From IMG/VR virus record IMGVR_UViG_3300045454_000127, positions 1 through 45,932 of that record: DNA of 45,932 bases; one strand, 5' to 3'. Below are positions 12,823 to 42,079 of the stretch, piece by piece. Position 1 is the stretch's first letter. The number at the start of each line of letters is the position of its first letter. Origin of the DNA: a virus. The notes below the pieces were generated by a model. The model saw only the letters and a program-made list of their open reading frames with translations, did no database searches and was not told where the DNA came from. The translations under genes were made by a program, and so were the position numbers.

Positions 12823-12836
12823 TAGTTCGTGCGCCA

Positions 12837-13505: not shown

Positions 13506-13540
13506 GGTGTTCCTCTGGCCGCTGGGAGCATAGCGAGCGC

Positions 13541-14113: not shown

Positions 14114-14382
14114 GCGATCTCGTCTGGAAAAAGTGGTTCGCGTGGCGACCTGCGCAGCTTTCGCACGGCAGCGAGGGCTTCTGGCTCGCGCCGATATGGA
14201 TGCCGCGTCCGTGGCGATGGCTCTGCATGATCGAGCGGACGACAAGCCCTGCAGCTGTCTTCGGGCCGTACTACCGCGATCCGAAGCTTAAGAACCTGCC
14301 GCCTCAGGCGGAGCGTGAACGCGCGCGACTTGCTGTCTCGCGCAACCAGAGCGATCAGTCCGGCATGGAGAAAACACCATGA
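14110..14382 (+). CDS. Hypothetical early protein, 90 aa
   Basis: No family recognised. A Trp-rich small protein (VWKKWFAWRP; APIWMPRPWRWLCMIER) with a charged C-terminal tail. It starts with GTG in the preceding stop and overlaps the replication initiator start by ATGA. No membrane helix is convincing despite the aromatic content. Confidence 0.6.
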   Translation: MSDLVWKKWFAWRPAQLSHGSEGFWLAPIWMPRPWRWLCMIERTTSPAAVFGPYYRDPKLKNLPPQAERERARLAVSRNQSDQSGMEKTP

Positions 14383-15641
14383 GCATTCAGGTCATGACAT
14401 GGGTGTTCCGGCAGACGCTGCCGCCGCGCGAGAAGGTCGCGGCACTCGCGATCGCGGACGAGGCCGACGACACCGGGCTTTGTTTCACCCGCAACTCGCT
14501 GCTCGCGGCGAAGGCCTCGCTTTCGCCCGGTACGTTCAAGCGCGCGGTGAAGCAGCTCGTGGAATGGGGCATGCTCGAAACCAAGCCGCAGTTCACCGTC
14601 ACCGGGCGGCAGACTACGAACCTGATCCAGCTTCGCATCGACCGCGACGTGCCGTTCGAGGTCGCGGAAGCCGTGAAAGAGGAGGGGTCCAAGTTTAACC
14701 CCACCCCCGCCGGGGATTCGGAAAACGCAACGAAACCAGCACCTTCCGATGGTGACCCCATGGAGGGGGTCCAGATTGGACCCCTAGCAAATGCTGCAAA
14801 TTCCGGGGGGGAGGGAGTCAATCTGAACCCCACGGGGGGGTCACAGCTGGACCCCTCGGGGGAGTCAACTGCTGACTCCCCTATAACCCGTTTTAATACC
14901 CCATCTTTAAACTCAGCCGCGGTCGTGCCGAATTTCGGATCGGTCAAACCGCCGCCGCTGCCCGTACGCAAGGCAGCAGGCTCGGCAGGAGAGCAGGAAA
15001 CGATCGACCGCGACTCGTCGCAGTTCATCGCCGAACAGTTCGAGCGGCTGAAGACGATCTACCAGCAGTTCAACAAGGCTACCTTCATCGGCAGCGAGCC
15101 GTTGCCGTGGGCGAAGTTCCGGAAACTGCCGTTCGAGAAGCGGCACGAGGCCGAAACGAAGCTGCCGCTCTACTTCAAGGGCTTCAACGCCGCCTACGCA
15201 CGCTGGCAGACCGCGAAGCCTTCCGAGCGCGGACCAAAACCCAAATGTGCGTCGCTGCGCGACTACATCTGCGGCGAGATGTTCGAAAAGATCGGCTGGC
15301 CTTCCGCGCCCGTGGCGCCGCCGAAGCCGCCGCCGGCTGCGTGGTGTGCCGCCATCAAATCGGCGCCGCGCTCGCAGTTCGACGAGGGTGCGGTGTTCGT
15401 GCAGGCCGAGAGCCAGTCCTTCCGCGACTGGAAGGCGGCCGAGCGGCGCGCGGGCGCGGTCGCGCTCGGTGCGCGCAAGTTCGTGCGGCGCGCCGAAGAC
15501 AGCGACCAGATTGCGTGGAGCGGCTACGGGCTGTTCTACGCATCGGAAACGCCGCCTAGCGAGGAAGATTTCGAGGACCGGATCGCCGGTCGAACAACGT
15601 CCGGAGGCGATCCGGGCAACAGAACAAGGGGTGCGGCATGA
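14379..15641 (+). CDS. Replication initiator-like winged-helix protein
   Basis: A 420-residue protein with an N-terminal winged-helix domain of the kind found in phage replication initiators: VMTWVFRQTLPPREKVAALAIADEADDTG, then FTRNSLLAAKASLSPGTFKRAVKQL and GMLETKPQF (residues 5-80, quoted in parts below 20). Residues about 102-168 are low complexity because their DNA carries five palindromic iterons. The C-terminal half (about 210-400) is conserved-looking and may hold the primosome-contact region. This organisation is that of lambda O, whose gene contains the origin. The next gene overlaps by ATGA. No helicase gene is present, so host DnaB is probably recruited. Confidence 0.8.
   Translation: MSIQVMTWVFRQTLPPREKVAALAIADEADDTGLCFTRNSLLAAKASLSPGTFKRAVKQLVEWGMLETKPQFTVTGRQTTNLIQLRIDRDVPFEVAEAVKEEGSKFNPTPAGDSENATKPAPSDGDPMEGVQIGPLANAANSGGEGVNLNPTGGSQLDPSGESTADSPITRFNTPSLNSAAVVPNFGSVKPPPLPVRKAAGSAGEQETIDRDSSQFIAEQFERLKTIYQQFNKATFIGSEPLPWAKFRKLPFEKRHEAETKLPLYFKGFNAAYARWQTAKPSERGPKPKCASLRDYICGEMFEKIGWPSAPVAPPKPPPAAWCAAIKSAPRSQFDEGAVFVQAESQSFRDWKAAERRAGAVALGARKFVRRAEDSDQIAWSGYGLFYASETPPSEEDFEDRIAGRTTSGGDPGNRTRGAA
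14684..14881 (+). repeat. Palindromic iterons, candidate replication origin
   Basis: Five related dyads with arms near GGGGTYCA and TGRACCCC lie in the initiator gene: 14684-14702, 14766-14784 (GGGGTCCA-GAT-TGGACCCC, perfect), 14813-14831, 14837-14855, and 14859-14881 (GGGGAGTCA-N5-TGACTCCCC, perfect). The first four are 19 bases with a 3-base centre. The final three are packed about 22-24 bases apart, two helical turns. They are the expected binding sites for the encoded initiator. Confidence 0.8.
14881..14915 (+). other. AT-rich segment next to iterons, candidate unwinding element
   Basis: Directly after the last iteron the sequence becomes about two-thirds A+T (TATAA, TTTTAATA and TTTAAACT blocks) in a strongly GC-rich genome. 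In lambda the same order, iterons then an AT-rich stretch inside gene O, marks the origin and its melting site. Confidence 0.65.
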
Positions 15642-16309
15642 CGAAGAAAAACAAGCAGCCGAAGGACTACAAGACGCTCGCGGCGGCGATGGAAGCGAAA
15701 GACGACATGTACGCGCGGGCGCCGAGCGTGCGGCTCGACCGGCCGCGTTCGAAAATCGCGCGGGTCGAGAAGGCGTGGCATGCGATCCGCACCCAGCCCC
15801 TGATGGAGGCGAAGGTCGCGGCGCGGATGATCGGCGACTACGAGTTCGGCAAGATGAAGATCGGGCACTACCTGCCGCTGACCAAGATTTCGTTCGAGCG
15901 CATGCGGCGCATGGTGATCGCCTCGCGCGCGCTGTTTCCCGGCATCGTGTTCGTGCACTTTCCGGACGAGGAGGCGGAAGCCAAGGGCTTCGAGAAGCTG
16001 CGCGGTTGGCCGGGCTTCATCAACATGCTGCGCTCGGGCAACCCGCGCACCGGCCCCTGGGGTGAGATCGAGGCGATCGGCATCCGCACGCTGATGGAGC
16101 AGGAACTACAGTTGTCCACAGCCAGCAAGAAGCTGAAAATGCCCTATGCAGTCGGCGATCGGGTGCAGCTTACGGGCACGAACCCGTTTGCCGGCTTCCG
16201 GGCGATGATCGAGGAAGTTGCGCCGAACGAACGAATCACTATGTTGCTGGACGTGTTCGGCCGGAAGACGCGCATGACCGTCGATCCGGGCGAGGTGATC
16301 AAGGTCTAG
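15638..16309 (+). CDS. NusG paralogue, candidate late antiterminator
   Basis: A 223-residue protein with both NusG domains. The NGN domain (about 47-150) shows AWHAIRTQPLMEAKVAARM, YLPLTKIS and RALFPGIVFVHF followed by GWPGFINML. The KOW domain (about 168-223) reads YAVGDRVQLTGTNPFAGF, then IEEV and a VFGRKTRMTVDPGEV ending typical of NusG. Host NusG binds RNA polymerase; specialised paralogues such as RfaH and LoaP suppress pausing and termination on chosen operons. It is the last early gene, just upstream of a hairpin leader and intrinsic terminator before the late genes, so a late antitermination role is a strong inference. Confidence 0.88.
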   Translation: MTKKNKQPKDYKTLAAAMEAKDDMYARAPSVRLDRPRSKIARVEKAWHAIRTQPLMEAKVAARMIGDYEFGKMKIGHYLPLTKISFERMRRMVIASRALFPGIVFVHFPDEEAEAKGFEKLRGWPGFINMLRSGNPRTGPWGEIEAIGIRTLMEQELQLSTASKKLKMPYAVGDRVQLTGTNPFAGFRAMIEEVAPNERITMLLDVFGRKTRMTVDPGEVIKV

Positions 16310-16373
16310 ACGCAACCGAGGGGGCGTCTGGCACTGATGCCGGGGAGCTTCGAGGGCTCGCTACAACGCAAAC

Positions 16374-16388
16374 GGCTCGAAACGAGCC
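16374..16388 (+). promoter_or_regulatory. Late leader hairpin
   Basis: GGCTCG-AAA-CGAGCC forms a tight 6-bp hairpin in the leader between the NusG paralogue and the late genes. Its 3' arm can instead pair with AGGGCTCG at 16353-16360 (an 8-bp arm with CGAGCCCT, 16383-16390), so two structures compete. It could recruit the antiterminator or act as a weak terminator (CTTTG follows). Confidence 0.5.
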
Positions 16389-16427
16389 CTTTGCTCCTGC
16401 CGGAGGCATGCAGACCGAAAACGAATG

Positions 16428-16452
16428 ACCGCGCCATCGAGCGCGGTTTTTT
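16428..16452 (+). terminator. Intrinsic terminator before late operon
   Basis: ACCGCGC-CATCGA-GCGCGGT followed by six T residues: a 7-bp GC-rich stem with a clean U tract. It lies 118 bases after the NusG paralogue and 11 bases before the first late gene, so it should separate early from late transcription unless read through. Confidence 0.88.
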
Positions 16453-16463
16453 CGTTCTAGGGC

Positions 16464-17225
16464 ATGCTCACCATCGGCGTGAAAACCAACGTCAACGAGA
16501 TCAAGCGCGTCCTGAACGACCAGCGGCGCCGCAAAGCCCCGCTCGCGGTCGCGGTTGCGCTGACCAAGACCGCGAAAAGCGTGCAGCAGTCGCAGTATCT
16601 CGAAATGGCCTCGGTCTTCGACCAGCCGACCCGCTTCACGCTGAACTCGCTCTACGTGCGTCCGGCCAAGCCCAACGATCCGAAGGCGAGCGTTGAGTTC
16701 AAGGAGGGCTTCGGCTCGATCCCGGCGTTCCGCTACCTGCAGCCGCAGATCGAAGGCGGCACGCGCGTGCACAAAGGCTTCGAGCGCGCGCTGATCCGGG
16801 CAGGCCACATGCGCAAGGACGAGTTCGCCGTACCCGGCAAGCATGCCGAACTCGACCAGCACGGCAACATGAAGGGCAGCTTCATCACGCGCGTGCTGTC
16901 GCAGCTAGGCGCTGCCGAGCATTCTTCAGGGTACATGGCCAACATGACCAAACGGTCCCGGAAAGGGAACGTGAAGCGGGCAGGCGGCCGGTATTTCATC
17001 ATGGGGCGTGGTCGGACCGGCAGCCGCGCTGAGCGAAACGTGCAGCCGGGCATCTACCTCCGCGCGCCCACCGGGGCGGCCTACCTGATCATCGCGTTCG
17101 TGAAAGCGCCGAAGTACCAGAAGCGGTACGACCACTATGGTGTCGCCGAGCGCGTGGTCGATCTCGAACTGGAACTCGAAATGTCGAAGGCCTTCGAGAA
17201 GTACTGCGGCATGCCGCGCCGCTGA
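16464..17225 (+). CDS. First late gene, putative virion-associated protein, 253 aa
   Basis: I do not recognise a characterised family with certainty. The protein is basic and begins with a helix seen in tail-completion-like phage proteins (NEIKRVLNDQRRRKAPLAVA; ALTKTAKSVQQSQYLEMASVFDQPTRFTLNSLYV). It then has a beta-rich middle (FRYLQPQIEGGTRVHKGFER) and a C-terminal segment around GIYLRAPTGAAYLIIAF. Related unnamed proteins occur next to terminase genes in other lambdoid phages. It is the first gene after the leader terminator. Confidence 0.7.
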   Translation: MLTIGVKTNVNEIKRVLNDQRRRKAPLAVAVALTKTAKSVQQSQYLEMASVFDQPTRFTLNSLYVRPAKPNDPKASVEFKEGFGSIPAFRYLQPQIEGGTRVHKGFERALIRAGHMRKDEFAVPGKHAELDQHGNMKGSFITRVLSQLGAAEHSSGYMANMTKRSRKGNVKRAGGRYFIMGRGRTGSRAERNVQPGIYLRAPTGAAYLIIAFVKAPKYQKRYDHYGVAERVVDLELELEMSKAFEKYCGMPRR

Positions 17226-17330
17226 AATCGCCGTAAATGGCGAAGTGGAATGGCAACGGGTCCTTCCTGCGGTTCTGCCAACTGCGGGTAATTCGAACCC
17301 CGGCTATTCAGCAGTCTCGCGAGTTTTTAG

Positions 17331-17370
17331 AAGCCTAAACAGACTAAAGAAAAAGCCTAAAGAACTAAAG
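17331..17370 (+). repeat. A-rich direct repeats upstream of small terminase
   Basis: AAGCCTAAACAGACTAAAG (17331-17349) is repeated almost exactly as AAGCCTAAAGAACTAAAG (17353-17370), 22 bases apart. The tract is purine- and A-rich in a GC-rich genome, with an inverted match (GTTTTTAG) just before it. The 154-base gap it occupies also holds TCGCC-N6-GGCGA at 17229-17244. A terminase-binding (cos or pac) site is the natural guess. Confidence 0.5.
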
Positions 17371-17379
17371 GGGCGCGTA

Positions 17380-18054
17380 GTGAATGGCTCTGCGGTTCCG
17401 GAACTTCTCAGCAAAGGCGAGTACGCGCGGCTGATCGGTGTGACGCCCGGACGGGTATCTCAATACATCTCCGAGGGAAAGCTTTCAGGCGAGGCCCTCA
17501 AGGGCGAGGGCCGGACCGCACAAATCCGCGTTGCCGTCGCGAACCAGCAGTTGAACCTGCGTCTCGATATCTCGCAGCGGCTCGGTAATGGCATCAACAC
17601 GCGGCTCGATCAGGGACCGCGTCCAGCGGCGGCTGACGCACTTCCGCTGGCAGCGCCGCCGGCCGGGGATTCGGTCGAGGAACAGATCAAGCGCGCACGG
17701 CTGCGCCAGATCGAACTCGACAACCGCAAGAGTGCCGAAGACGCGGCCCTTCGGGCCGGCAAGCTGATCGACGCCGAGGCGGTACGTCAAAGCCAAGGCC
17801 GCGCCTTCGCCCGCCTGGTCGCAGGCTTCGAGGGCTCGCTCGCCGACTTCGCGACCGCGATCGCGAACAAGTTCAGCCTTCAGCAGCGCGACGTGCTGCA
17901 CGAACTCAAGATGGAATGGCGCAACGTGCGCGCTCGGAATGCCAAGGATCTGCAGACGGCGGCGGAACAGCTGCCGCAGGAATCGCAGATCGAGCTCGAA
18001 GACGGCGCCGCGATCGACGAAGCCGAGCCCGTGCCGGAAGACGCCGCCGCATGA
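17380..18054 (+). CDS. Terminase small subunit (Nu1-like)
   Basis: A 224-residue DNA-packaging protein. Residues about 10-40 form a helix-turn-helix (LLSKGEYARLIGVTPGRVSQ then YISEGKL), the standard Nu1-type DNA-binding start. The centre has RARLRQIELDNRKSAEDAALRAGKL and an ALL-helix region, and the C terminus is acidic, as needed to contact the large subunit. GTG 17380 is preferred because AAGGGG lies 6-7 bases upstream; the frame is open further upstream but without a site. The stop overlaps the large subunit start by ATGA. Confidence 0.82.
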   Translation: MNGSAVPELLSKGEYARLIGVTPGRVSQYISEGKLSGEALKGEGRTAQIRVAVANQQLNLRLDISQRLGNGINTRLDQGPRPAAADALPLAAPPAGDSVEEQIKRARLRQIELDNRKSAEDAALRAGKLIDAEAVRQSQGRAFARLVAGFEGSLADFATAIANKFSLQQRDVLHELKMEWRNVRARNAKDLQTAAEQLPQESQIELEDGAAIDEAEPVPEDAAA

Positions 18055-24073: not shown

Positions 24074-25129
24074 ATGGACCCCACGAACTTCAACTTCCCC
24101 TACACTGCGACCCAGCTCACCGAGCAGGTCAATCGCATCCCGAACATGTTCGGGATGCTTGCGGCGCTCAACGTGTTTTCGAGCGATCCCTCGGCCTCGA
24201 CGCTGGTCGAAATCCGCTACGAGGACGGCCTGCTGCGCGTCCTTCCCGCGAAAGAGCGCGGCGCACCGGGCACGCAGGCGGCACGCGAGCCGGGCAACAC
24301 CATCTTCTTCCCGATCCCGCACTTTCCGCACATGGATCTGATCACGCCCAAGGACATCCAGGACATGCTGATCCTGCTCGGCATGACCAAGGTGCCGAAC
24401 ACGGTCGACAAGGAGATGGCGAAGCGGCTCCTCAACATCCGCAACAATCACGCCATCACCCTCGAATACATCCGCATGGGTGCGCTCAAGGGCGAGATCA
24501 AGGACGGCAACGGGCAGACTCTCTACAACCTGTTCGACGAGTTCTCGATCGAGAAGAAGCAGGTCTTCTTCGATCTTTCGAACGCGGCCACGGACATCAT
24601 CGCCAAGTGCGAGGAAGTCTACGACCACGTGCTAAAGAACCTGAAGGGCGAAGTCTCGACCGGCGTCGAGATCATCGTCGGCTCCGGCTTCATGAACAAG
24701 CTGGTGCAGCACGCCAAGGTCAAGGACACCTGGCTGCACTACTCGGCCGCCGCGGCGGTTGCCAACATGAATCGCGACCGCTCCGGGCAGAACTGGGGCC
24801 GCGTGTTCGAGTTCGGCAACATCTTCTTCCGCGAATACAAGGGCACCTTCCCGGTGAAGGCGAACGCCGATGCCGCGGTCGCCTCGGTCGCGGCCGTGGA
24901 CTCCGGCAAGGGCCATGCCTATCCGACCGGCACCATGGACACCTTCAAGACCTGGTTTGGTCCGGCTAACACGCTGTCGGCCGCAAACAAGCCGGGCGAC
25001 GAGGTGTTCATCTCGCCGAAGGTGCTCGACCACGACAAGGGCGTCGAGATCTGGAGCGAGAGCAACCCGCTCGCACTCTGCAAGCGCCCCGAAGTGCTGG
25101 TCGAAGTCAGCGAAACCGCCGCGCCGTAA
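24074..25129 (+). CDS. Major capsid protein (lambda gpE family)
   Basis: A 351-residue HK97-fold capsid protein of the gpE family. Recognisable parts are NRIPNMFGMLAALNVF at the N terminus, FPIPHFPHMDLITPKDIQDM (near 78-97), an ADEEMAKRLLNIRNNHAITLEY-like helix region and the late blocks WGRVFEFGNIFFREYKG and AYPTGTMDTFKTWFGP. AAAGGAGTCGG precedes the ATG at 24074. It is flanked by a weak terminator upstream and a strong one downstream, consistent with separate control of its level. Confidence 0.95.
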   Translation: MDPTNFNFPYTATQLTEQVNRIPNMFGMLAALNVFSSDPSASTLVEIRYEDGLLRVLPAKERGAPGTQAAREPGNTIFFPIPHFPHMDLITPKDIQDMLILLGMTKVPNTVDKEMAKRLLNIRNNHAITLEYIRMGALKGEIKDGNGQTLYNLFDEFSIEKKQVFFDLSNAATDIIAKCEEVYDHVLKNLKGEVSTGVEIIVGSGFMNKLVQHAKVKDTWLHYSAAAAVANMNRDRSGQNWGRVFEFGNIFFREYKGTFPVKANADAAVASVAAVDSGKGHAYPTGTMDTFKTWFGPANTLSAANKPGDEVFISPKVLDHDKGVEIWSESNPLALCKRPEVLVEVSETAAP

Positions 25130-25150: not shown

Positions 25151-25181
25151 AAAACCCGCCGCTTCACCGCGGCGGGTTTTT
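25151..25181 (+). terminator. Strong intrinsic terminator after capsid gene
   Basis: CCCGCCGC-TTCACC-GCGGCGGG (25155-25176), an 8-bp GC stem, flanked by A and T runs that extend it, with five T residues. It lies inside the late operon between capsid and FII genes, so downstream tail genes need readthrough or another promoter. Confidence 0.9.
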
Positions 25182-25205: not shown

Positions 25206-25544
25206 ATGCGCCTTCTGCCCGACATGGACCGGCACTTCACCGCACTCTTCGGTGAGGAAAAGCCCGCGCTATACCAGCGCAAGGCGGGCGGCGAGCCGTT
25301 CGCGGTCGATGCGATCTTCATCGACCAGCCGCTCGGCGTCGATCTGAACGAGGTGCCCGCCGACGGCCATCAGACCCAGATCCACGTGCGGGCCGCGCAG
25401 GTCGGCGAGGTCGCGGAAGGCGACCTAATCACGCGCGAACGCGACGGCAGGCAGTTCAGGATCACGCCGCCGATCGCGCGCGACGATCAGGACATGATCG
25501 GCTGCAACGCCTATCCGGTCGATCCGCAGGAGGGCGATTCCTGA
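25206..25544 (+). CDS. Head-tail joining protein (lambda FII-like)
   Basis: A 112-residue protein between capsid and tail genes, matching the size (lambda FII 117 residues) and position of FII. The predicted fold is a small beta barrel (QTQIHVRAAQVGEVAEGDLI; RQFRITPPIARDDQDMIGC). GCAAGGAGACC precedes the ATG at 25206. It prepares the head for tail attachment. The stop overlaps the ATP-grasp start by one base. Confidence 0.72.
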   Translation: MRLLPDMDRHFTALFGEEKPALYQRKAGGEPFAVDAIFIDQPLGVDLNEVPADGHQTQIHVRAAQVGEVAEGDLITRERDGRQFRITPPIARDDQDMIGCNAYPVDPQEGDS

Positions 25545-26449
25545 TGCGCCTGTGGTGTTTCGACGACAACCAGCTCTGGGGCCGGCAACTGCACGCCGCC
25601 GCGGTTGCGCGCGGCGTCGACGCGCGCATGTTCCGCAATCCCTACGACTGCGACGAGGGCTACGCCTTCGTGCACATGCACCATCACCCGGACGTGCGCA
25701 CGCGCGACAAGCGCGTCGCGGGCATTCTCGCGCTGAATACCGCGATCGTCATGGTGCCGGACTATCGCTCGACTTTGCTCTACGACGACAAGGCCGAGCA
25801 GGCCCGGCAGCTCGCGCCATGGATGCCGAAGACGCGGCTATTGTATTCGCGCACCCAGGCGCTGCGCGAACTGCCGCGCATGGTGTTTCCCTTCATGTCC
25901 AAGGCGCCGTTCGGGGCCGGCTCGCACAACGTGCGGCTGGTCGCGAGCGAGGCGCAGGCGCTTGCCGAGATCGAGGACGTGTTCCCGAAGAAAAAGGCGG
26001 ACAAGCCGAAGGGCATCAAGTGCCGCTACGACCAGCGCCAGCGCGGCGTACTCCTGTGGCAGGACTTCCTCGAGGGTAACGATCACGATCTGCGCATCAT
26101 CGCGATCGGTTCGCAGCGGCTGATCCTGCGCCGCAAGAACCGTCCGAACCGGCCGATGGCGTCGGGCTCCGGTCTGACCGAGCCGATCCGCGAACTCGAT
26201 GATGAGTGTGCAGCGGCGCTGGAATTCGCCGACCGGTTCTTCAAGGCGCATAACTTCCGCTGGTGCGGCATCGACCTCGTGCGCGATCGCAGCCAGCCTT
26301 CCGCGTGGCGCGTGCTGGAGACCACGGTCGGCTGGACCCTTTCGGGGTACGACGACTGCAACTTCTTTCCGAGTTCGCGGGCGGGCAGCGACATCTGGAA
26401 CGTTCTGCTCGACGAGATCGCGGCGGGCAATTTTCCGCCCGCGAACTGA
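25544..26449 (+). CDS. ATP-grasp ligase-like protein
   Basis: A 301-residue ATP-grasp enzyme, a fold that ligates a carboxylate to an amine or thiol using ATP. Visible elements are the nucleotide-binding Lys120 in PFMSKAPFGAGSHNVRLV with its glycine loop (123-126), the WQDFLEGNDHDLRIIAIG strand pair (172-189), Asp244 in CGIDLV, and Glu259 in LETT. The usual E-x-N metal motif is E-T-T here, so Asn is missing. It is translationally coupled to FII and followed 9 bases later by a glycosyltransferase. No such enzyme is part of lambda morphogenesis. Modification of a virion protein or host glycan is possible; substrate unknown. Confidence 0.82.
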   Translation: MRLWCFDDNQLWGRQLHAAAVARGVDARMFRNPYDCDEGYAFVHMHHHPDVRTRDKRVAGILALNTAIVMVPDYRSTLLYDDKAEQARQLAPWMPKTRLLYSRTQALRELPRMVFPFMSKAPFGAGSHNVRLVASEAQALAEIEDVFPKKKADKPKGIKCRYDQRQRGVLLWQDFLEGNDHDLRIIAIGSQRLILRRKNRPNRPMASGSGLTEPIRELDDECAAALEFADRFFKAHNFRWCGIDLVRDRSQPSAWRVLETTVGWTLSGYDDCNFFPSSRAGSDIWNVLLDEIAAGNFPPAN

Positions 26450-26458
26450 CCGCGCACG

Positions 26459-27187
26459 ATGGAACCGATTACTTTCGTCACGTGGAAGTGGCGCCCGAAC
26501 GGCTATCGCCACGCGTTCACGAGCGAGCACGTCAACGTGCTGTTTGCCGCGGTCAAGCGCAACTACCAGGGGCCGTTCCGCTTCGTCACCATTACCGACG
26601 ATCCGCGCGGTCTGGAACAGGGGATCGAGCCCGTCCCGCTCTGGAACGATTGCAGCGCAATACCGAACGCAAGCGGCGCGCAGCTTCCGAGCTGCTACCG
26701 CCGTCTCAAGCTGTTCGCGCGGAATGCGCACGAACTGATCGGTGCGGCGCCGTCCTCGCTCGCGGTTTCGCTCGATCTCGATCTGGTGATCACGAAGGAC
26801 CTGACGGCGACACTCTCGATGCCCGGCGACTTCGTCGGCTGGGTGCGCCGCGGCTCGCATCACGAGCGGGTCTTCAACGGTTCGCTCTGGAAGCTGCGGC
26901 TCGGGAGCCTGCCGCGGGTCTGGGAGAAGTTCGATCCGCTGACCTCGCCGCGCGAGGCGAACGAGCGCGGGTTTCTCGGCTCCGACCAGGCGTGGATGTC
27001 CTACCAGCTGCAGGGCTATCCGGGCTGGGAACGGCGCGACGGGATTTTGCACTACGGCGTCGACGCGCAGGGGCACGCGGTTCTGCCGAACGACGCCCGC
27101 ATGGTGATCTTCTGCGGCAAGAAGAAGCCCTGGCATGCCGACATCCTCGCCCACTACGGCTGGGTGCGGGAACACTGGAGGGCGTGA
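26459..27187 (+). CDS. GT-A-fold glycosyltransferase
   Basis: A 242-residue glycosyltransferase. The metal and sugar-nucleotide motif D-x-D is in AVSLDLDLVITKDL (Asp106, Asp108). Later blocks VFNGSLWKL (138-146), GSDQAWMSY (174-182) and FCGKKKPWHADI (218-229) follow the plan of small GT8-like or LPS-type transferases, in which the H-x-G-x-x-K-P-W segment binds the diphosphate. Mycobacteriophages use glycosyltransferases beside structural genes to decorate capsid and tail proteins, which is a good model here. It overlaps the tail terminator gene start by one base. Confidence 0.8.
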   Translation: MEPITFVTWKWRPNGYRHAFTSEHVNVLFAAVKRNYQGPFRFVTITDDPRGLEQGIEPVPLWNDCSAIPNASGAQLPSCYRRLKLFARNAHELIGAAPSSLAVSLDLDLVITKDLTATLSMPGDFVGWVRRGSHHERVFNGSLWKLRLGSLPRVWEKFDPLTSPREANERGFLGSDQAWMSYQLQGYPGWERRDGILHYGVDAQGHAVLPNDARMVIFCGKKKPWHADILAHYGWVREHWRA

Positions 27188-27642
27188 TGGCACATGTTCG
27201 CAAGCTGATCCGTCACGCCGCGGCGGCACTCCTCAAGGACAACATCGCCGGCGTCGCCGACCGCGTGCTCACCGGCCGCCGTCGCGCGCTTACCGAAAAC
27301 CACAAGCCGACGATCCTGGTCTATTTCGGCGACGAGGAGGCGGAGCGCACCGCAAACGGCCGTCCGCCGCCGAGCGACCGCACCGCCACGCTCTACATTG
27401 AAATCCGCGTGCAGGATCCGGAAGAAGTTGACGACAAACTCGACGACATTGCGGAGGCCGTCGAGAAGCGGATCGGCGCGACCCAGAAGTTCGGCGGGCT
27501 CGCGAGCGACACGCTCTACCGCGGTCAGGACACCGTCGCACAAGTGCCAGGCACGACGATCGTTGCCGGCATGCGCCTGAACTACCGGGTTCGCTACCGC
27601 GTGCCCGAAGGAAACCCCACTCATGACACGGGAGACTCGTGA
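27187..27642 (+). CDS. Tail terminator / minor tail protein (gpU-like)
   Basis: A 151-residue protein in the position of lambda gpU or Z. Its start, VRKLIRHAAAALLKDNIAG, with the later TLYIEIRVQDPEEVDDKLDDIAEAVEKRI and a C-terminal TIVAGMRLNYRVRYR strand, fits the gpU alpha/beta fold that caps the tail tube. Assigned by position and fold pattern. It overlaps the tail tube gene by one base. Confidence 0.7.
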   Translation: MAHVRKLIRHAAAALLKDNIAGVADRVLTGRRRALTENHKPTILVYFGDEEAERTANGRPPPSDRTATLYIEIRVQDPEEVDDKLDDIAEAVEKRIGATQKFGGLASDTLYRGQDTVAQVPGTTIVAGMRLNYRVRYRVPEGNPTHDTGDS

Positions 27643-30818: not shown

Positions 30819-31630
30819 TCGTCCTGTCGCAGGCGCTCGCGCTCTCGCTCGCCGCTGCGCCGGACGCCGACAATCCGGTGTTCGGCTGGAAGAGCATCGT
30901 GCACGCGGCCGGCATCGCGGCGGATTCGGCGCTGCCGCAGTATCCGGCGTCGAACCTTGCCAATCCGGCCACCAACGAAATCTGGAAGAGTGAAACCGCG
31001 GACCTGCAGTACCTGACGGTGACGATCGAGGAAGTTTCGCTGTTCGATTGCGTGGCGCTGGCGCGCCACAATTTCGGCACGGCGGAGATCGCCGTCTCGC
31101 TGGAAAAGCGCGTCGGGGTGGAGTGGGAGGAACTGATCCCGCCGTTCCTGCCGCCGGACGACAGTCCGGTCATGATGCGGGTACCGAAGCAAGGTATCGA
31201 CGAGGGGCAGCTTCGGATCGGACTTTCTCCGCAACGAGAGATTCCCCCGCGCGCGGCGGTGCTATTCGTCGGCGAGCTGCTCGTGATGGAGCGCTCCTTT
31301 CCGCAGGAATTCACGCCGCTGCCGCATGCGAACCGGGTGACGGTCGCGCAGGACGTCTCCGATGGCGGTGAACTCTTGGGCGCGATCGTGCTGAACGAAA
31401 CCCAGGCGACATCGATTTCCTTCCAGATGCTCGACGCCGCCTGGTACCGGGCTCACATGGCGCCGTTCGTGAAAGAGGCGAACCGCAAGAAGCCGTTCTT
31501 CTTCGCCGCCAACCCGCAGTCGCAGCCGCATGAGGCGGCCTATGCGTGGTTCGAGGAGGCCGCGCAGCCCGTCTTCAAACCCGAATTCGACGCTGCCGAT
31601 ATCTCCATTCAGCTGAGGGCGGTTTCGTGA
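30815..31630 (+). CDS. Distal tail protein candidate, 271 aa
   Basis: A beta-rich 271-residue protein following the tape measure, where distal or minor tail proteins are encoded. No characterised domain is certain. It contains blocks such as LPQYPASNLANPATNEIWKS, FDCVALARHNFGTAEIAVSL and AYAWFEEAAQPVFKPEF that look like those of unnamed tail proteins of related phages. Its stop overlaps the J-like GTG start. Confidence 0.65.
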   Translation: MIVLSQALALSLAAAPDADNPVFGWKSIVHAAGIAADSALPQYPASNLANPATNEIWKSETADLQYLTVTIEEVSLFDCVALARHNFGTAEIAVSLEKRVGVEWEELIPPFLPPDDSPVMMRVPKQGIDEGQLRIGLSPQREIPPRAAVLFVGELLVMERSFPQEFTPLPHANRVTVAQDVSDGGELLGAIVLNETQATSISFQMLDAAWYRAHMAPFVKEANRKKPFFFAANPQSQPHEAAYAWFEEAAQPVFKPEFDAADISIQLRAVS

Positions 31631-34600
31631 AATCCCTGACCTATGTCGAGATCGACCTGAAGCGGTGCGCCCTCAACTATGGAGAGGCGCCTTGTACCGC
31701 CGCGCTCGGCACGCCCGAGGAGGTCGAGAGCGGGGAAGCGACCGGTATCCGCAAGTGTTTCAATTGTGCGGCGGATTGTCAGGACTTAGAGAACCTTGAC
31801 GAGGAAACGGTCACGCTCCGCTTCGCGCTGGATACGGGATACCTGCCGCGCGAAATCGAGGCGATCCCCTCGCTGATCGAGGACCGGCTCTCGCCGGCCA
31901 AGGTGTCGCTCGGCGAGGATCTCGGGGTCCGCGCGCAGCTCGACCTCACGTTCCGCGACCATCCGCACGGCGATACCGGTCCGATCGGCGACAAGTATCC
32001 GGAGTCGCGGGACTATGCCGCGTATGAACGGGGCACGTTCTGGGGCCGCTTCCGGGCGCGCTACCCGTTCATTCGCGGCCGCGCGATCCGGCTGATCCAG
32101 GGTTATGTGCCTGCTGGTTTTGTGGGCGACTATCCGCAAGGGTTGCCGCTGCCGACGGGCGTACTCCTGAAGCAGGACACGCGGCATTTCGTGGCGGAGA
32201 GCACGACCGGGCCGGTGCCCGAAGGCACGTTTAACATCGTCGCGCATGACGAACTGAAGAAGCTCGACGGCGACCGCGCCCAGGTGCCGAAGCCGTCCGA
32301 GGGCCGCCTGCTCGCGGACATCGCCGCCGATGCCGTATCGCTCATGCTGACGCCGACAGGCGCCGGCAATCTCGACTATCCCCGCAGCGGCCATGTCACC
32401 ATCGGCGGCCGCGAAGTGGTGCTGTTCGAGCGCGACCCCGACAACGGGCTCAATGCCAATACGCAGCTCCTGCTGAAATTCAACGGCACCCACGGGGCAA
32501 CCGCGATGCCGGACTCGAGCGGAAACGGCCGCAACGGTACCGCGCAAGGGCACGCGCGGCTGACCACGGCGCGCAAGCCGTTCGGTACCGCAGCGCTGAT
32601 CCTCGACGGCGACGGCGACTATGTCACCGTACCCGACAACACCGCCTGGCATCATGGCAACACCAACCCGTTCACCGAGGACATTCACATCTCGCCCGAC
32701 GAAATTGCGGGCACGCAGTCCTTGATTTGTCATTCCAGCAACAGCCTCACGAACTATCGCCGCCTCTACATCACCGCGGCCGGGGCGGTCGGCTTCGAGG
32801 TCGTCTCCAGCGGAGTGGCGTTATTGTCGCTGGTGTCGCCGGACGGCGTGGTGGAGGCGCAGAAGTTTCAGCATATCTCGATCGAGCGGACGGCGGCACA
32901 CCTCTGGAACATCCGCGTTGACGGGGTGACCGTTGCCAGCACGACGGCCAACATTTCGATCCCGAACTATTCGAGCACGCTGCGCATTGGCACCAACGGC
33001 AACGCTTCCGGAGATTTTTTCAAGGGGGCGTTGAAGGAGGCTCGCATCCAGAACGCCGTGTTCTGGGGCGCCGATTTCCCGGATTCGGTGCCTGCCGGCT
33101 ACACCAACCTCGGTCCCGACGGGCTTTCGATCTTCCGGGCACAAAAAGAAACGGTCGCGCAGGCCCACAACGCGCAGGACCGCGTGCAGCTGATGAAAAG
33201 CTACGTCGCGGCCGACCCGGCAGACGTGCTTGCGGACCTTGCGAACAACTATGCCGACATCGGTCCGGCGCTGACGCCGGTCGAACAATGGCGGATCGAG
33301 ATCGCAAGCTATCTCGGCATTCTGATCACCGCCGATATCGCCGAGCCGACCGCGGTCAAGAAGATATGGGAAGAGATCGTCAAGGACTTCTCGCTCTGCG
33401 TCTGGACCGACGAAACGGTTCCCGAAATCAGGCTGCGGGTGCTGCGGGAGGTGCAGGCCGGCGCGGTGCGCTACGACGAGTCGAATTATATCGAGCGGAG
33501 CCTTCGCATTGCCGAGCAGCCCGAAAAACGCCGGTCCTCGGTCTGGACCTATTACGGCAAGCGCAGCCCGATCGAAGGCGAGGAAGAGCCGAAGAACTAT
33601 CGCGCCGTCGTGGTCCGCGTGACCGCGCTGCAGCAGGCCCTCAACGAACCGCCGTCCATCGAGAAGATATTCTCGCGCTGGATTCCCGCAAGCGGCAGGC
33701 CGATTGCGGAGAACGTGAGCGAAGTGCGTCTTTCGCGCTACGAAGTGGCGCCGCGGCTGATCGAATTCGATCTGTCGCGCGCGATTGCCAGAACGCCGGT
33801 TTTAGGCGAGTCCTGCCATCTTGCCTGCGCGCGCGCCATCCAGGATGCGACCGGCGGCGGGATTTTCCTGCCGCTCCAGAATACCTCGATCGCGGCCAAG
33901 AAAGACCGCTTCTCGCTCGCGGCCGAGGAAATGCGCGGCGGCGCGCAGATCATCGACCAGAATCAGCGGCGGCTTTTTCTGGAGGGCGACCGCTACAACA
34001 TCAATGTTCGCGCCGAACACGACCTGATCTATCCGGCGCTGACCGACGAGGATGTCGCAAACGGCGTTTCGCTGACGGTGATCGTGGTCGCAGGTGCGCG
34101 CGTCGGCAGTATCGCGACCACGATCGCCGCGCTCGATTTCGGCGACGGCAGTTCCTGGCCGGAAGGCCTACCGATCACGCTGGAAATTCGTGGCCTTGTT
34201 CTTGGAAAAGGCGGCGACGGCGGTAATGGAGTTTATCTGAACGGCATGAATGGCGTTTATACCAATGGAAACAAGAACGGACAGAATGGCGGCCCCGCTA
34301 TCAGGACGCGGGTTCCAATCGTTATCAAGGTAATCGAAGGCGGGAAAGCTGGCGGCGGCGGTGGTGGCGGCGGCGGCGCGGAAAATCCTATTGCTTACGA
34401 TATGACCGGCGGGTGCGGTGGTGGCGGCGGCGGATTTAATCCGGGCGCGATCGGAAACTACAGAACAAATAGTGCCGAACCGGGGACCGATCTTCTGGGT
34501 GGGCGCGGCGGCAACTCTCAATGGAATTCTGGCTCTCTATATCGCGGCGGCAAGGGTGGCGATATTGGCCAGAATGGTTCTAACGGATTTCAGGTGAACG

Positions 34601-34710
34601 GCACTCCCGTCAATACAACGCCGGGAAATGCTGGCGCTGTCATCGACGGAATTTCCTACTGCACAATCGAAGAAGGGGACGCGGACATTCTCGGCCCGCG
34701 GATCAACTGA
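31627..34710 (+). CDS. Composite tail tip / J-like protein with LamG and glycine-rich domains
   Basis: A 1027-residue protein. Residues 1-60 carry a Cys cluster (Cys14, 23, 44, 47, 51) like the metal-binding C terminus of lambda gpL. Residues about 80-275 and 480-790 follow J-type tail tip proteins (TFWGRFRARYPFIRGRAIR; AHNAQDRVQLMKSYVA; YDESNYIERSLRI). Between them, about 276-481, a LamG/concanavalin-like domain is inserted (DSSGNGRNGTAQG; ALILDGDGDYVTVPDN; FFKGALKEARIQNAVFWG). Residues about 858-1020 are rich in glycine runs, as in polyglycine-helix receptor-binding adhesins such as T-even gp38. It starts with GTG 31627 in the previous stop. It likely determines host range. Confidence 0.88.
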   Translation: MKSLTYVEIDLKRCALNYGEAPCTAALGTPEEVESGEATGIRKCFNCAADCQDLENLDEETVTLRFALDTGYLPREIEAIPSLIEDRLSPAKVSLGEDLGVRAQLDLTFRDHPHGDTGPIGDKYPESRDYAAYERGTFWGRFRARYPFIRGRAIRLIQGYVPAGFVGDYPQGLPLPTGVLLKQDTRHFVAESTTGPVPEGTFNIVAHDELKKLDGDRAQVPKPSEGRLLADIAADAVSLMLTPTGAGNLDYPRSGHVTIGGREVVLFERDPDNGLNANTQLLLKFNGTHGATAMPDSSGNGRNGTAQGHARLTTARKPFGTAALILDGDGDYVTVPDNTAWHHGNTNPFTEDIHISPDEIAGTQSLICHSSNSLTNYRRLYITAAGAVGFEVVSSGVALLSLVSPDGVVEAQKFQHISIERTAAHLWNIRVDGVTVASTTANISIPNYSSTLRIGTNGNASGDFFKGALKEARIQNAVFWGADFPDSVPAGYTNLGPDGLSIFRAQKETVAQAHNAQDRVQLMKSYVAADPADVLADLANNYADIGPALTPVEQWRIEIASYLGILITADIAEPTAVKKIWEEIVKDFSLCVWTDETVPEIRLRVLREVQAGAVRYDESNYIERSLRIAEQPEKRRSSVWTYYGKRSPIEGEEEPKNYRAVVVRVTALQQALNEPPSIEKIFSRWIPASGRPIAENVSEVRLSRYEVAPRLIEFDLSRAIARTPVLGESCHLACARAIQDATGGGIFLPLQNTSIAAKKDRFSLAAEEMRGGAQIIDQNQRRLFLEGDRYNINVRAEHDLIYPALTDEDVANGVSLTVIVVAGARVGSIATTIAALDFGDGSSWPEGLPITLEIRGLVLGKGGDGGNGVYLNGMNGVYTNGNKNGQNGGPAIRTRVPIVIKVIEGGKAGGGGGGGGGAENPIAYDMTGGCGGGGGGFNPGAIGNYRTNSAEPGTDLLGGRGGNSQWNSGSLYRGGKGGDIGQNGSNGFQVNGTPVNTTPGNAGAVIDGISYCTIEEGDADILGPRIN

Positions 34711-35825
34711 TGGCGCGCGGAGGCTATTACGGTCAGGTGCAGGACGATGCCGGCAACGTCGTGCCGGAGGCGTCGATCCGGGTGCGGCGGCTTTCGGCGG
34801 GCAAGCCGCCGGCCCAGCTGTTCGCGGCGCGCGACGGCGGCGCAGCACTCGGCAATCCGTTCGTCGCCGCCGCCGACGGCAGCTTCCTCTTTTTCGTCGC
34901 ACAAGGCGGCGCCTTCGAGATCACGGCGAGCAAGATCATCGCGGACGAGCTCTGGGAAAAAACCATCCCCTACGCCGCGGTCGCGAACGGCGCCGAATAC
35001 GACTTCGACAGCCTGTTCAGTTCCGTCTCGCTGCCCGGCCTGGAGCATCTGCTTTACAGCGACGAGACCGCTTCGGCGGAACACGTCAATTCGCTCAGCG
35101 AAAGCGGTGCGCTCAAAACTTTCTCGCTCCCAGCCAACACCTACGAGAAGATCAAGATCGAGGCCGTGGTGCGGTCCCGTGTCGAGCAGGACGCCAACGC
35201 GAAGTCCACCTTCACCTGGCGCTTCAAGGCGGCCGGGAATGCGGTCGCGAACGGCATTTTTACCGAGCAGATCACCGCGAACAGCACGACCGGCATCGAT
35301 GGCGGCAACCGCAACGTCAGCACGATCTCTGTCATCATTCAGGGCGGCCAGCAGGAAACCACGGCGCTTTCGATCACCGCGCAGATGACCGTGAACAATT
35401 CTGCGACCGGCGCACTGGTGCACTCCTTCCGCGTCTACGGCTATCGCGACGAGACGGTGACCGCGCTCACCGGCGAGCGCGATACCGCGGTTGTCAGCTT
35501 TGCGATCTCCGGCCGTCCGCGCAGCGGCGAGATCGTCGAAGGCACCGTGTTCGTGGACCCGGTTTCCTTCCCTGTGGATTTCGAGGGTTCGGAAGCCGTT
35601 TCACGCGTGGCGGCGGCTGCCGAAACGGTTTTCTCGATCACGAGAGGTGACGCCGAAATCGGCACCGTCACCTTTGCCGCGGACAGCAGTCACGGTGTTT
35701 TCGCGCTCGAGGAGGAAACGGTTTTCGATATCGGGGAATCGCTCGACATCGTTTGCCCGAATCCGAGAGACACAACGCTTTCCGGCGTGAAGATCGCGCT
35801 GCGCGGACGCCGCATACCCGTCTGA
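34710..35825 (+). CDS. Tail tip or fibre protein, 371 aa
   Basis: Begins YYGQVQDDAGNVVPEASIRVR, a carboxypeptidase-regulatory-like beta sandwich pattern (residues 4-30) seen in fibre and adhesin N termini, followed by extended beta-rich sequence with many Thr, Ser and Val. No enzymatic motif. It overlaps the J-like stop by one base, so it probably joins the tip. Confidence 0.68.
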   Translation: MARGGYYGQVQDDAGNVVPEASIRVRRLSAGKPPAQLFAARDGGAALGNPFVAAADGSFLFFVAQGGAFEITASKIIADELWEKTIPYAAVANGAEYDFDSLFSSVSLPGLEHLLYSDETASAEHVNSLSESGALKTFSLPANTYEKIKIEAVVRSRVEQDANAKSTFTWRFKAAGNAVANGIFTEQITANSTTGIDGGNRNVSTISVIIQGGQQETTALSITAQMTVNNSATGALVHSFRVYGYRDETVTALTGERDTAVVSFAISGRPRSGEIVEGTVFVDPVSFPVDFEGSEAVSRVAAAAETVFSITRGDAEIGTVTFAADSSHGVFALEEETVFDIGESLDIVCPNPRDTTLSGVKIALRGRRIPV

Positions 35826-35848
35826 GTTTTCAAAACAGGAGAAGACGC

Positions 35849-36169
35849 ATGAGCCTCAAGGTGGGGGATCGCTTTACCGTGTCCGCCCCGCACGAAGTAA
35901 GAAGCGCAAAGGGCCGGCTCTTGGCCCGCTACAGGCCGGAGTTCGACTACCGCGTGACCGAGCGCAACGTCGGTGACGCGAACAAGATGCTGGCCGAAGG
36001 CATCGCGCTCGCGGGTGGCAACGCTGCGGCCCGCGAGGTGCAGCGGATGGAAAAGACCGCCGCCGCCGGGCCGCGCGGCAAATCGAAATCGGCAGCGCGC
36101 CTTCGCGGCGGCTCAGCCGCCGGGAAAATCCGTGCAACCGTAAACACTGGCCCGAAAGGAGATAACTGA
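35849..36169 (+). CDS. Small basic tail-region protein, 106 aa
   Basis: No family recognised. Begins with a small beta domain (VGDRFTVSAPHEVRSAKGRL) and ends in a long basic, low-complexity tail (AGPRGKSKSAARLRGGSAAG). AGGAGAAG (35837-35844) gives a good ribosome site for the ATG at 35849. It overlaps the next gene by one base. Confidence 0.65.
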   Translation: MSLKVGDRFTVSAPHEVRSAKGRLLARYRPEFDYRVTERNVGDANKMLAEGIALAGGNAAAREVQRMEKTAAAGPRGKSKSAARLRGGSAAGKIRATVNTGPKGDN

Positions 36170-36558
36170 TGGCTGTTACCCATGATAATGCGACGCGAAA
36201 CGCGCTCGCAAACGTGGTTGGAGACAATCACGATGTAGGCTCTGCCGGCGATGCCGTGCTGCAGCTGCGCGACGGCTCGACCGTCATTGTCGAGTTTCCG
36301 CTCGACGACCCCGCGTTCGACACCGCGCCTGCCACGGCGACGGGCATCATCACTGCGCAGGGCTTGCCGATCGAAGTGCAGGCCGGCGATGAAGGAGACA
36401 TCGATAATTTCGTAACGCGGGACAAGGATGGCACGCAGCGTCTTGCTGGCTCGGTGACTGCGATCGGCATGGGCGGCGATGTCGAGGTGACCAACCCCAA
36501 CATCGCGCCCGGGCAGGACTGCTCGCTCGAAAGCCTGACCTACGAAGCGGCGCCGTAA
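36169..36558 (+). CDS. Hypothetical tail-region protein, 129 aa
   Basis: No family recognised. A probably all-beta protein (AVLQLRDGSTVIVEFPLDD; GIITAQGLPIEVQAGDEGD). A strong AAAGGAGAT site precedes the ATG. Located between the tip proteins and a repeat protein, it may be structural. Confidence 0.65.
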   Translation: MAVTHDNATRNALANVVGDNHDVGSAGDAVLQLRDGSTVIVEFPLDDPAFDTAPATATGIITAQGLPIEVQAGDEGDIDNFVTRDKDGTQRLAGSVTAIGMGGDVEVTNPNIAPGQDCSLESLTYEAAP

Positions 36559-37476
36559 GTGATTGCGCGCCGTCGCATCCTGCTCTCCGGCGACATGCAG
36601 TCCGGAGACGATGTTCTGCTGCTCTCCGGCGACATGCAATCCGGCGAGGATGCCGAGCTGGTCTCGATCGTCCAGTTCGGCGGCGTGCTGGAGTCGGGTG
36701 ACGCGGAGGTCGCCGTATCGGTCAAGCCGCTGGTCGCCGCGAGCGCGGTGCTCGTCTCCCAGGACGGCGTGATCGCGGGCACCGTCGAGATCGCGGACAA
36801 CGTGCTGCGGGTCTATGGCGGGATCGCATCGCAGGAAGCGACTGTCAGCGGCGAAGTTGCGGCTTCGGTCGCCGCAAGCGGCAATCTCTCGTCGGGCAAT
36901 GCTGCGGTCACGAACGACGTCGCGATCCGCATTGCGGCGTCGGGCACCCTGCTTGCCGACGATGCGGTGCTTTCGGCCTCGGTGAAAGCCGTGGTTGCCG
37001 CCTCCGGGCTGCTGCAATCGGAAGAAGCCGCGCTTTCGGCTTCCGTGAACGCCATCGTCGCGGCGGCCGGAGAACTCGCCGCTGGCGAGAGCGAAATCTC
37101 CGGCACCGTCACGACGCGGATCTCTGCGAGCGGCGAACTGCTCTCGCAGGACGCGGCACTCGCCGCGATCGCGGTTACCTCCGACACGATCGTGGTGCAG
37201 GGCGCGATGCAGTCGCAGTCGGCGGCGCTCGCGGCCGAGGTCAGGGCGAAGATCGAAGCCTCCGGCGTGCTGGTGTCCGGCGAGGCGCAGCTGGACGCCG
37301 CGGTGAAAGCCATCGTCTCGGCCGCCGGCGATCTCGTTTCCGGCGATGCCGCGACGGACGCGACCATTCGCTTCACGATCTTCACGAGCGGCGCGCTGGA
37401 ATCCGGCCAGGCCACGATCACGGCGGAAGCCGAGAGCGAACTCGGGCGGCGCATCGTGACCGTCATTCTTTATTGA
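36559..37476 (+). CDS. 21-residue repeat protein, putative fibre
   Basis: A 305-residue protein made almost entirely of about 14 copies of a 21-residue unit with consensus A-S-G-x-L-x-S-G-[DE]-A-x-[LV]-x-A-x-V-x-A-x-V-x-A (for example GTLLADDAVLSASVKAVVAAS and its neighbours, given here by their first residues GTLL, GLLQ, GELA, GVLV, GDLV). The alternating small-hydrophobic pattern suggests a beta-solenoid or a trimeric stacked fibre. The start is GTG at 36559 next to the previous stop; no clear ribosome site is visible, so coupling is assumed. I do not recognise the repeat as a named family. Confidence 0.78.
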   Translation: MIARRRILLSGDMQSGDDVLLLSGDMQSGEDAELVSIVQFGGVLESGDAEVAVSVKPLVAASAVLVSQDGVIAGTVEIADNVLRVYGGIASQEATVSGEVAASVAASGNLSSGNAAVTNDVAIRIAASGTLLADDAVLSASVKAVVAASGLLQSEEAALSASVNAIVAAAGELAAGESEISGTVTTRISASGELLSQDAALAAIAVTSDTIVVQGAMQSQSAALAAEVRAKIEASGVLVSGEAQLDAAVKAIVSAAGDLVSGDAATDATIRFTIFTSGALESGQATITAEAESELGRRIVTVILY

Positions 37477-37483
37477 GGGCACT

Positions 37484-38548
37484 ATGGCAGACAAGGAAAT
37501 CGGCGATCTGACCGACGGCGGCGAGGCACAGGAAGGCGACCTGTTCCATGCCGTGCGCGGCGGCAACTCGCGCAAAGTGACGTTTCCAACGCCGGGCGGC
37601 GGCGGGCTCGACATCGAAGCCCTGATGGCGCTGACCGATCCTGCGACCGCGACGGAAGGGTCGAGCCAACTCACGGTCGATGTCGAAGGCGGCGAAAAGC
37701 TATATTTCGCGCACACACTCTCTGCCAATGCCGAATTGCAGGCGCCGTCGAACTGGCCCGACGACTTCGGCGTCACCTTCACGCTGGAGATCAACCCGAA
37801 CGGGTTTGAACTCACGTTCAATTCCGCGGTCTATGTCGGCAGGGTGCCGACGGTCACGCGCAAGAGCGTGTTGCAGATTCAAAGGCTGGCCAACGGAAAA
37901 TATACGGTCGCGCGAAGCTGGGTCGAGCAGCCCTATGTCGCAATCGTCAGGAACGAAGCGCCGACCGGCACCGGCACTTCGCTCGTCTTCGATGTGTCCG
38001 CGGTCGATATTCAGGAAGGCGATCTCCTGGTTGCGGTCATCGGCATCGATCCGTCGTGGTCGGCGCTGACCCCGCCTTCCGGGTTTTCCACCATCACGGG
38101 CACCACGGCTTCCGGCAACGGCGCGATACAGGCCAAGATCGCGACCTCGACAGAAGTGGAGGCGAGCTCGCTCACCTGGTCCTGGACGACCGCACAGGAG
38201 CGGGCAGGGTCGCTTCTGGTCATTCGCGGCCACAACGGATCGAGCTGGCTTTCGATTGCGGGTGACGCGACGGCGACGAGTGCCGCGCCTACCGCGCCGA
38301 GCGTGCTGGTGCCGCACGACGACACGATGATCCTGCGGTTTTTCGTCACCGACGACGACGACACGCCGTATGCGCAGAACGACTCGTTTGCGTCGATCCG
38401 AGTGCGCGCGAACCTCGCGCCGACGACGGAAGGCCCCGGCGTATTCGGCGGCGAGCACTATCAGGATTTCAGGGGGTATTCCGGCACGTTCACATTCTCG
38501 ATGAACGCCTCGGAAGACCATCGCGTGTTCACGGTCGCGGTGCGCTGA
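37484..38548 (+). CDS. Tail fibre protein A, 354 aa
   Basis: Begins with the short motif KEIGDLTDGGEAQEGDLFHAV common at the N termini of phage fibres that attach to the baseplate or tip. A Thr/Ser-rich beta stem region follows (about 45-150), then a C-terminal domain (about 155-354) with GDLLVAVIGID, GFSTITGTT and AGSLLVIRGHNG blocks. The same plan recurs in the next gene, so the two are likely paralogous tips. Confidence 0.72.
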   Translation: MADKEIGDLTDGGEAQEGDLFHAVRGGNSRKVTFPTPGGGGLDIEALMALTDPATATEGSSQLTVDVEGGEKLYFAHTLSANAELQAPSNWPDDFGVTFTLEINPNGFELTFNSAVYVGRVPTVTRKSVLQIQRLANGKYTVARSWVEQPYVAIVRNEAPTGTGTSLVFDVSAVDIQEGDLLVAVIGIDPSWSALTPPSGFSTITGTTASGNGAIQAKIATSTEVEASSLTWSWTTAQERAGSLLVIRGHNGSSWLSIAGDATATSAAPTAPSVLVPHDDTMILRFFVTDDDDTPYAQNDSFASIRVRANLAPTTEGPGVFGGEHYQDFRGYSGTFTFSMNASEDHRVFTVAVR

Positions 38549-39309: not shown

Positions 39310-39420
39310 TCAGTCGTAATATCCGTTCTCGCTGACCGAGCCTTCGGGAATGTCGGCGGTGCATGTGCCGCGCCATTCGTTCCACTTGCGGTAAAGCCAG
39401 CAGCGGAGATTCCAGATCAT
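39310..39420 (-). CDS. 36-residue leftward small gene
   Basis: An ATG at 39420 preceded by CGGAGGACACG (a GGAGGA ribosome site with a 5-7-base spacer) opens a 36-residue frame ending at 39310, directly adjoining the fibre stop. The peptide starts MIWNLRCWLYRKWNEWRGTC and is rich in Trp and Arg, with two cysteines and an acidic end. Such a good ribosome site on such a short frame argues for a real gene. Function unknown. Confidence 0.6.
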   Translation of the reverse strand: MIWNLRCWLYRKWNEWRGTCTADIPEGSVSENGYYD

Positions 39421-39450
39421 CGTGTCCTCCGGTCGCCCGGCTGGTGCCGG

Positions 39451-39591: not shown

Positions 39592-39711
39592 GGCAGCAGG
39601 AACCTTCCTAGACCCTGACGAACGGCACCGCAACGGCTCCGGCAAGCCCCTGAAAACAGACTCGTTTTGGATTTGCGAACCGGCTCCGGACCCGCGCGCG
39701 GCTTTCGATTT

Positions 39712-39763: not shown

Positions 39764-39797
39764 GGAAGACCTCACCAACAGCACAAGGAAGACGACC

Positions 39798-40894: not shown

Positions 40895-40930
40895 AGGCCT
40901 GAGACTCTAAAAATCCAGAAAGGACAAGCG

Positions 40931-42024: not shown

Positions 42025-42079
42025 CGCCAAGCCCTAGACCCCTCGCGGTTTCATCAACATCCTGTTTTGGAGATATGTC

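Follow-up and report, generated by a model that had tools for sequence, protein, structure and literature searches.

The window analyzed here is a stretch of 45,932 nt that covers positions 1 to 45,932 of the virus record IMGVR_UViG_3300045454_000127 in the IMG/VR database. Its structural module encodes, all on the plus strand and in this order, a major capsid protein E of the lambda gpE family (positions 24074 to 25129; Pfam PF03864, E = 1.9e-81), a lambda FII-like head-closure/head-tail attachment protein (25206 to 25544; Pfam PF05354, Phage_attach, E = 2.4e-12), an ATP-grasp ligase of 301 aa with a RimK/LysX/ArgX-like fold and an E-T-T variant of the metal site (25544 to 26449), a GT8-type glycosyltransferase (GT) of 242 aa that is related to PmgQ of phage P1 (26459 to 27187), and a tail terminator (27187 to 27642; PHROG 4204, E = 3.6e-20), which is followed by the tail tube gene. 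A terminator-like hairpin, detected by a consensus scan at positions 25151 to 25180 (no strand assigned), separates the capsid gene from the FII-like gene; alone, it is no evidence of function. An earlier note, made from the sequence alone, had placed two enzyme genes at 25544-27187 and described them as coupled to the FII-like gene before them and the tail terminator gene after them. The positions are exact, and TGATG overlaps are found at both junctions, with the ligase start overlapping the FII-like stop at 25542-25546 and the tail terminator start overlapping the GT stop at 27185-27189. The ligase and GT genes are 9 bases apart, and a consensus scan revealed no promoter of their own. In GC content and third-position GC, both genes match their neighbors and are not conspicuous in composition; chance or spurious open reading frames are ruled out by the conservation of both genes across dozens of phages. 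The same note held that the pair stands where lambda has no genes. This has to be amended: lambda carries gene Z between FII and the tail terminator gene U, so the ligase-GT pair occupies the FII-Z-U interval.

Outside the structural module (positions 1-18051 and 31534-45793), the window encodes DNA methyltransferases of the D12 class, C5 cytosine, MT-A70, and Dam families, a DUF5131 protein, and a repressor-like protein (positions 16-834). The genes beyond the structural module, including the one for the repressor-like protein, suggest that this is a temperate phage.

The ligase and the glycosyltransferase

The AlphaFold2 model of the ligase, built from an 18-member alignment, has a pLDDT of 93.6 and displays the ATP-grasp fold, with 458 PDB matches at E ≤ 0.001 and ATP-grasp enzymes on top. 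The best Foldseek match is ArgX (3vpb; E = 1.1e-15, TM 0.73/0.78), and among solved structures those of ArgX (with LysW), LysX, RimK, and D-Ala-D-Ala ligase (Ddl) come closest, with TM values of about 0.6-0.8 at ~15% identity. At the sequence level, the window protein alone has no match in Pfam or PHROG, and a residue-level PDB alignment of one of its relatives from sequence alone returned no match. The LysX and RimK models of NCBIfam are matched weakly, with scores far under the family cutoffs (17.8 bits against 143.4 for rimK_fam and 21.6 bits against 275.6 for LysX_arch). Thus, both by the curated cutoffs and by the E-x-N motif, the ligase falls outside the RimK/LysX/ArgX family. It could not be assigned to the R2K/CDC123 clade of ATP-grasp enzymes either, as only 1 of the 18 members matches PF14243, with E = 0.11.

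Six residues, K83, K120, Q173, R184, D244, and E259, are invariant in all 61 nonredundant relatives of the ligase; they include the ATP-binding lysines and acidic metal ligands (K83, K120, D244, and E259), as assigned by motif rather than from a bound structure. The position of the canonical E-x-N is taken by E-x-S/T in 60 of the 61 sequences and by E-T-A in the remaining one. The E-T-T of the window protein, correctly pointed out in the earlier note as a departure from E-x-N, is therefore a family-wide signature, and a degenerate ligase is ruled out on this account. By the motif located near residues 206-210 of the window protein, the family subdivides into the ASGSG type, to which the window ligase belongs, the AQTGN type, and a small AAPS type.

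With the sequences tried, no ligase match was found among 50,697 GenBank phages or 72,556 plasmids. A cellular origin was also considered; a scan of genome contigs with narrow patterns, together with 195 Myxococcota genomes, yielded a single match (RPRB01000006.1; locus L014). This 75,335-base contig of a metagenome-assembled genome is also listed in IMG/VR as a viral contig, so its Myxococcaceae label tells little about the host. The viral ATP-grasp ligase family is apparently undescribed so far.

The AlphaFold2 model of the GT (pLDDT 96.5) has a GT-A fold with the D-x-D motif, as expected of GT8 enzymes. Its best Foldseek match is LgtC (1g9r; E = 3.2e-9), followed by the blood-group GT6 enzymes, GT8 proteins, and glycogenin, which was also recovered by a profile search with the GT family. 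As with the ligase, the main catalytic residues are kept, as had been claimed before; the D-x-D and DQ motifs are invariant in 105 of 105 sequences. The GT8 domain (PF01501) is recognized in 6 of 48 family members, with a best E value of 1.3e-4; the window GT is not one of them and alone has no Pfam match at all. It does match PHROG 1962 ("glycosyltransferase"; E = 2e-9), and the family aligns with P1 PmgQ in hhalign with a probability of 99.3% (E = 2.4e-20), a link also recovered by tblastn with a relative of the GT. By these sequence comparisons, the GT is a distant homolog of P1 PmgQ, the product of a dispensable "morphogenetic" gene. The activity predicted from its fold and motifs is GT8-type (retaining) sugar transfer from a nucleotide-sugar. 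With confident folds and conserved families of 61 and 105 sequences, respectively, the products of the two genes can be regarded as genuine enzymes, a ligase and a glycosyltransferase.

Conservation and surroundings of the pair

A search of IMG/VR with the ligase alignment alone retrieved 68 loci, or 69 with the truncated L004 from an earlier ligase scan. The searches were pattern-seeded and the best-scoring loci were kept, so the frequencies that follow are not population estimates: a GT is encoded within 3 kb of the ligase and on the same strand in 62 of the 69 loci, and of the seven exceptions, five (L004, L112, L119, L126, and L136) lie near a contig end, whereas L113 and L147 lack a GT despite being flanked on both sides. 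After near-identical ligases were dropped, 38 loci had 3 kb or more on either side, and 36 of them contained a GT; this set also takes in loci first found via the GT. Ligase and GT share a strand in all 58 nonredundant pairs. The earlier note had made its proposal depend on the two genes being conserved together in related phages, and this they are. The partnership is well supported, and it is not symmetric. Among nonredundant GT loci with such flanks, a ligase is present in 10 of 32 and absent from 22, of which 21 (e.g., among L019-L093) encode a GT2 enzyme, as if the GT8-type enzyme were paired with either the ligase or GT2. As the ligase is nearly always accompanied by the GT and the GT is often found without the ligase, the GT is the general element and the ligase an accessory that depends on it. 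Some ASGSG-type loci contain both the ligase and GT2. Phage glycosylation cassettes as such are already known; the new element is the near-obligate pairing of a phage ATP-grasp family with a PmgQ-like GT, of which we found no description in the open-access papers searched.

Recurrent partners in these cassettes include a sialyltransferase-like protein (PHROG 4603, similar to P1 PmgO), MptE-like, GT2, Methyltransf_24, O-methyltransferase, and NAD-dependent epimerase enzymes, a glycerophosphodiester phosphodiesterase (GDPD), and a small protein, here referred to as c5. The cassette flanks match families of the head maturation protease, minor head protein, head closure, head-tail adaptor, tail terminator, and major tail proteins, in agreement with the view that the pair belongs to structural gene modules. 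The partners differ between the ligase types. Where present, those of the ASGSG type are a methyltransferase, GT2, epimerase, or MptE-like enzyme. The AQTGN-type ligases are nearly always accompanied by c5, a protein of ~100 aa with one hydrophobic segment by hydropathy and the conserved motif PRET[IV]SG..GR. It is encoded in 37 loci (e.g., L143, 8876-9229; L030, 5093-5485; and L121, 8822-9130), 36 of which contain the ligase, which it adjoins. c5 weakly matches PHROG 3342, whose function is unassigned there; homology to P1 PmgR or PmgN is ruled out because the PHROGs differ. The GDPD protein (E = 2.2e-20) is found in the cassettes of L127 (8866-9834), L152, and L133, and has a second match, to a PHROG with the annotation tail fiber.

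Two relatives of the window phage help to define the site. In L019, whose large terminase subunit (TerL) and capsid protein are 71% and 68% identical to those of the window phage, the same site has the order FII-ligase-methyltransferase-GT-GT-tail terminator. The extra methyltransferase and second GT of L019, along with the lower identity of its ligase (38%) and GTs (43-50%) compared with the capsid, are suggestive of a cassette that is exchanged faster than its surroundings. They fall short of showing this, however, since the FII-like protein (40%) and tail terminator (37%) are equally diverged. In Sinorhizobium phage phi2LM21 (TerL 46% identical), the 14.5-kb structural stretch examined gave no match to the ligase, GT, or other cassette enzymes. 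With a cassette at the same site in L019 and none in that stretch of phi2LM21, the pair behaves as an accessory insertion in an ordinary lambda-like structural operon.

Possible roles of the cassette

The reading that we favor, at a probability of roughly 45%, is that the cassette is a modular, late-expressed unit that builds a sugar modification bearing a substituent in amide linkage, with a virion protein as the most likely acceptor. Judging from folds and motifs, the GT8-type enzyme would pass a sugar from its nucleotide-sugar donor to an acceptor, and the ATP-grasp enzyme would convert a carboxylate into an acyl-phosphate at the expense of ATP and then couple it to an amine. If both act in one pathway, as seems probable, this combined chemistry would give a glycan with an amide-linked substituent as the finished group; the substituent might, for example, be an amino acid or the amide of a uronic acid. 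As cassettes of other phages add sialyltransferase-like, GT2, methyltransferase, epimerase, and MptE-like enzymes, all of a sugar or glycan type, the chemistry would differ from phage to phage. An exposed virion protein would be the most likely acceptor, given the coupling of the cassette to head-tail genes here and its location among structural genes elsewhere, and an altered particle surface would be the likely benefit; the earlier note had proposed a capsid, decoration, or tail protein, or else the host surface, as putative targets. Three observations speak against the favored reading: c5, with its hydrophobic segment, adjoins the AQTGN ligases and could point to a membrane-bound target; P1 plaques normally without pmgO, pmgP, or pmgQ, so that growth there does not require any particle effect of the GT arm; and the GT is frequently found without the ligase (22 of 32 GT loci).

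The first of these observations is also the best argument for the main rival, a late modification of the host envelope (lipopolysaccharide, capsule, or lipid-linked glycan precursors) that would block readsorption to debris or superinfection. This we regard as rather doubtful. It is favored by the nearest fold of the GT, LgtC, being that of a lipopolysaccharide galactosyltransferase, by the sugar-modifying nature of the cassette partners, and by the normal plaquing of P1 mutants that lack pmgO, pmgP, or pmgQ. However, no GtrA/GtrB-like flippase or bactoprenol transferase is seen among the annotated recurrent partner clusters, the pair in the window has no adjoining membrane partner, and its position in a structural operon would imply late-only expression, unlike that of lysogenic-conversion genes.

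Alternatively, the ligase could add amino acids to the C terminus or a side chain of a protein, as RimK does on S6 and ArgX on LysW, with the GT acting separately and with a virion protein, small carrier, or host protein as the target. The closest folds (ArgX, LysX, and RimK) are indeed those of carrier- or protein-directed ligases, and the weak NCBIfam matches are to the same families, but no carrier protein resembling LysW was noticed next to the pair, and the near-obligate association with the GT suggests a single shared pathway; this option seems unlikely. We give still less credence to a role in making a modified peptide or a small molecule that diffuses, or to a takeover function directed at host proteins. 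Many metabolites and RiPPs are products of ATP-grasp enzymes, the fold matches of the ligase include the RiPP ligase PsnB, and phage R2K ATP-grasps have been proposed to modify host proteins (PMC4431377); on the other hand, neither a precursor-peptide gene nor a transporter was noticed in the cassettes, their constant tie to structural genes would be unexpected, and the R2K match is the marginal one mentioned above. Hypermodification of phage DNA bases is the least probable role: phage GTs can glycosylate modified bases (as cited in PMC12619734) and the window encodes DNA methyltransferases, but the cassettes sit among structural rather than DNA-metabolism genes, and the 43 other open reading frames of the window that were scanned include no dioxygenase, dNMP hydroxymethylase, thymidylate-synthase-like, or base-kinase family in Pfam or among the 25 PHROG matches listed.

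Comparison with known systems

If virion proteins are modified by the cassette, sugar-amide chemistry would join the plain sugars of phage glycosylation, which would bear on adsorption and particle recognition. Of the known ligases, RimK, LysX, and ArgX share the overall fold (as measured by the TM values for ArgX) and the core ATP-grasp residues with the window ligase, which differs in its ~15% identity, the E-x-[S/T] in place of E-x-N, its viral origin, and its linkage to a GT. A precedent for the combined chemistry comes from the type B flagellin of Clostridioides difficile, where formation of a peptidylamido-sugar depends on both GT3 and the ATP-grasp gene CDR20291_0245 (PMC5207246). There, too, a GT and an ATP-grasp enzyme are required, the target is a filament protein, and other GTs and a methyltransferase domain are encoded nearby (PMC5207246). 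Unlike the window pair, this system is cellular, with GT2-family transferases and a PF13535 ATP-grasp enzyme.

In mycobacteriophages (Che8 and its relatives), phage-encoded GTs glycosylate capsid and tail-tube proteins, as cited in PMC12619734 and PMC11256854; the passages on this subject describe no ATP-grasp partner, and the GT genes of Maravista lie near the 3' end of the genome and not among head-tail genes. Tetraselmis viridis virus S20/SI1 encodes a GT that is 46% identical to the GT studied here and adjoins the head closure protein Hc1, and it has two sialyltransferase-like genes, a GT2 gene, and methyltransferase genes among its head genes, but no ATP-grasp ligase in the stretch examined. 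An algal host is recorded for S20 (NC_020840.1; L002), yet it carries a Caudoviricetes head-tail module, and the host label may be wrong.

A close parallel is the pmgO-pmgP-ppp-pmgQ cluster of P1 (HdmD in P7). Its PmgQ is homologous to the GT, its PmgO is homologous to the sialyltransferase-like partner of the cassettes (E = 3.7e-43), and it likewise adjoins morphogenesis genes; it differs in having a protein phosphatase and no ATP-grasp ligase. P1 stays viable and shows no plaquing phenotype when pmgO, pmgP, or pmgQ is singly knocked out or knocked down (PMC9024508; PMC10695390), which makes the GT arm accessory and dispensable for assembly under laboratory conditions. The near-obligate co-occurrence thus links a viral ATP-grasp ligase family to a single GT family and ties both to these puzzling dispensable genes, and the link predicts that either the P1 virion or its host is modified in a way that depends on the GT. 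As a tentative generalization, the particles of many environmental phages may bear an aminoacyl- or peptidyl-amido glycan, the joint product of a GT8-type GT and an ATP-grasp enzyme specific to phages, with swappable partners giving each phage its own surface chemistry and with P1 pmgO-pmgQ as the ligase-free version of the same system.
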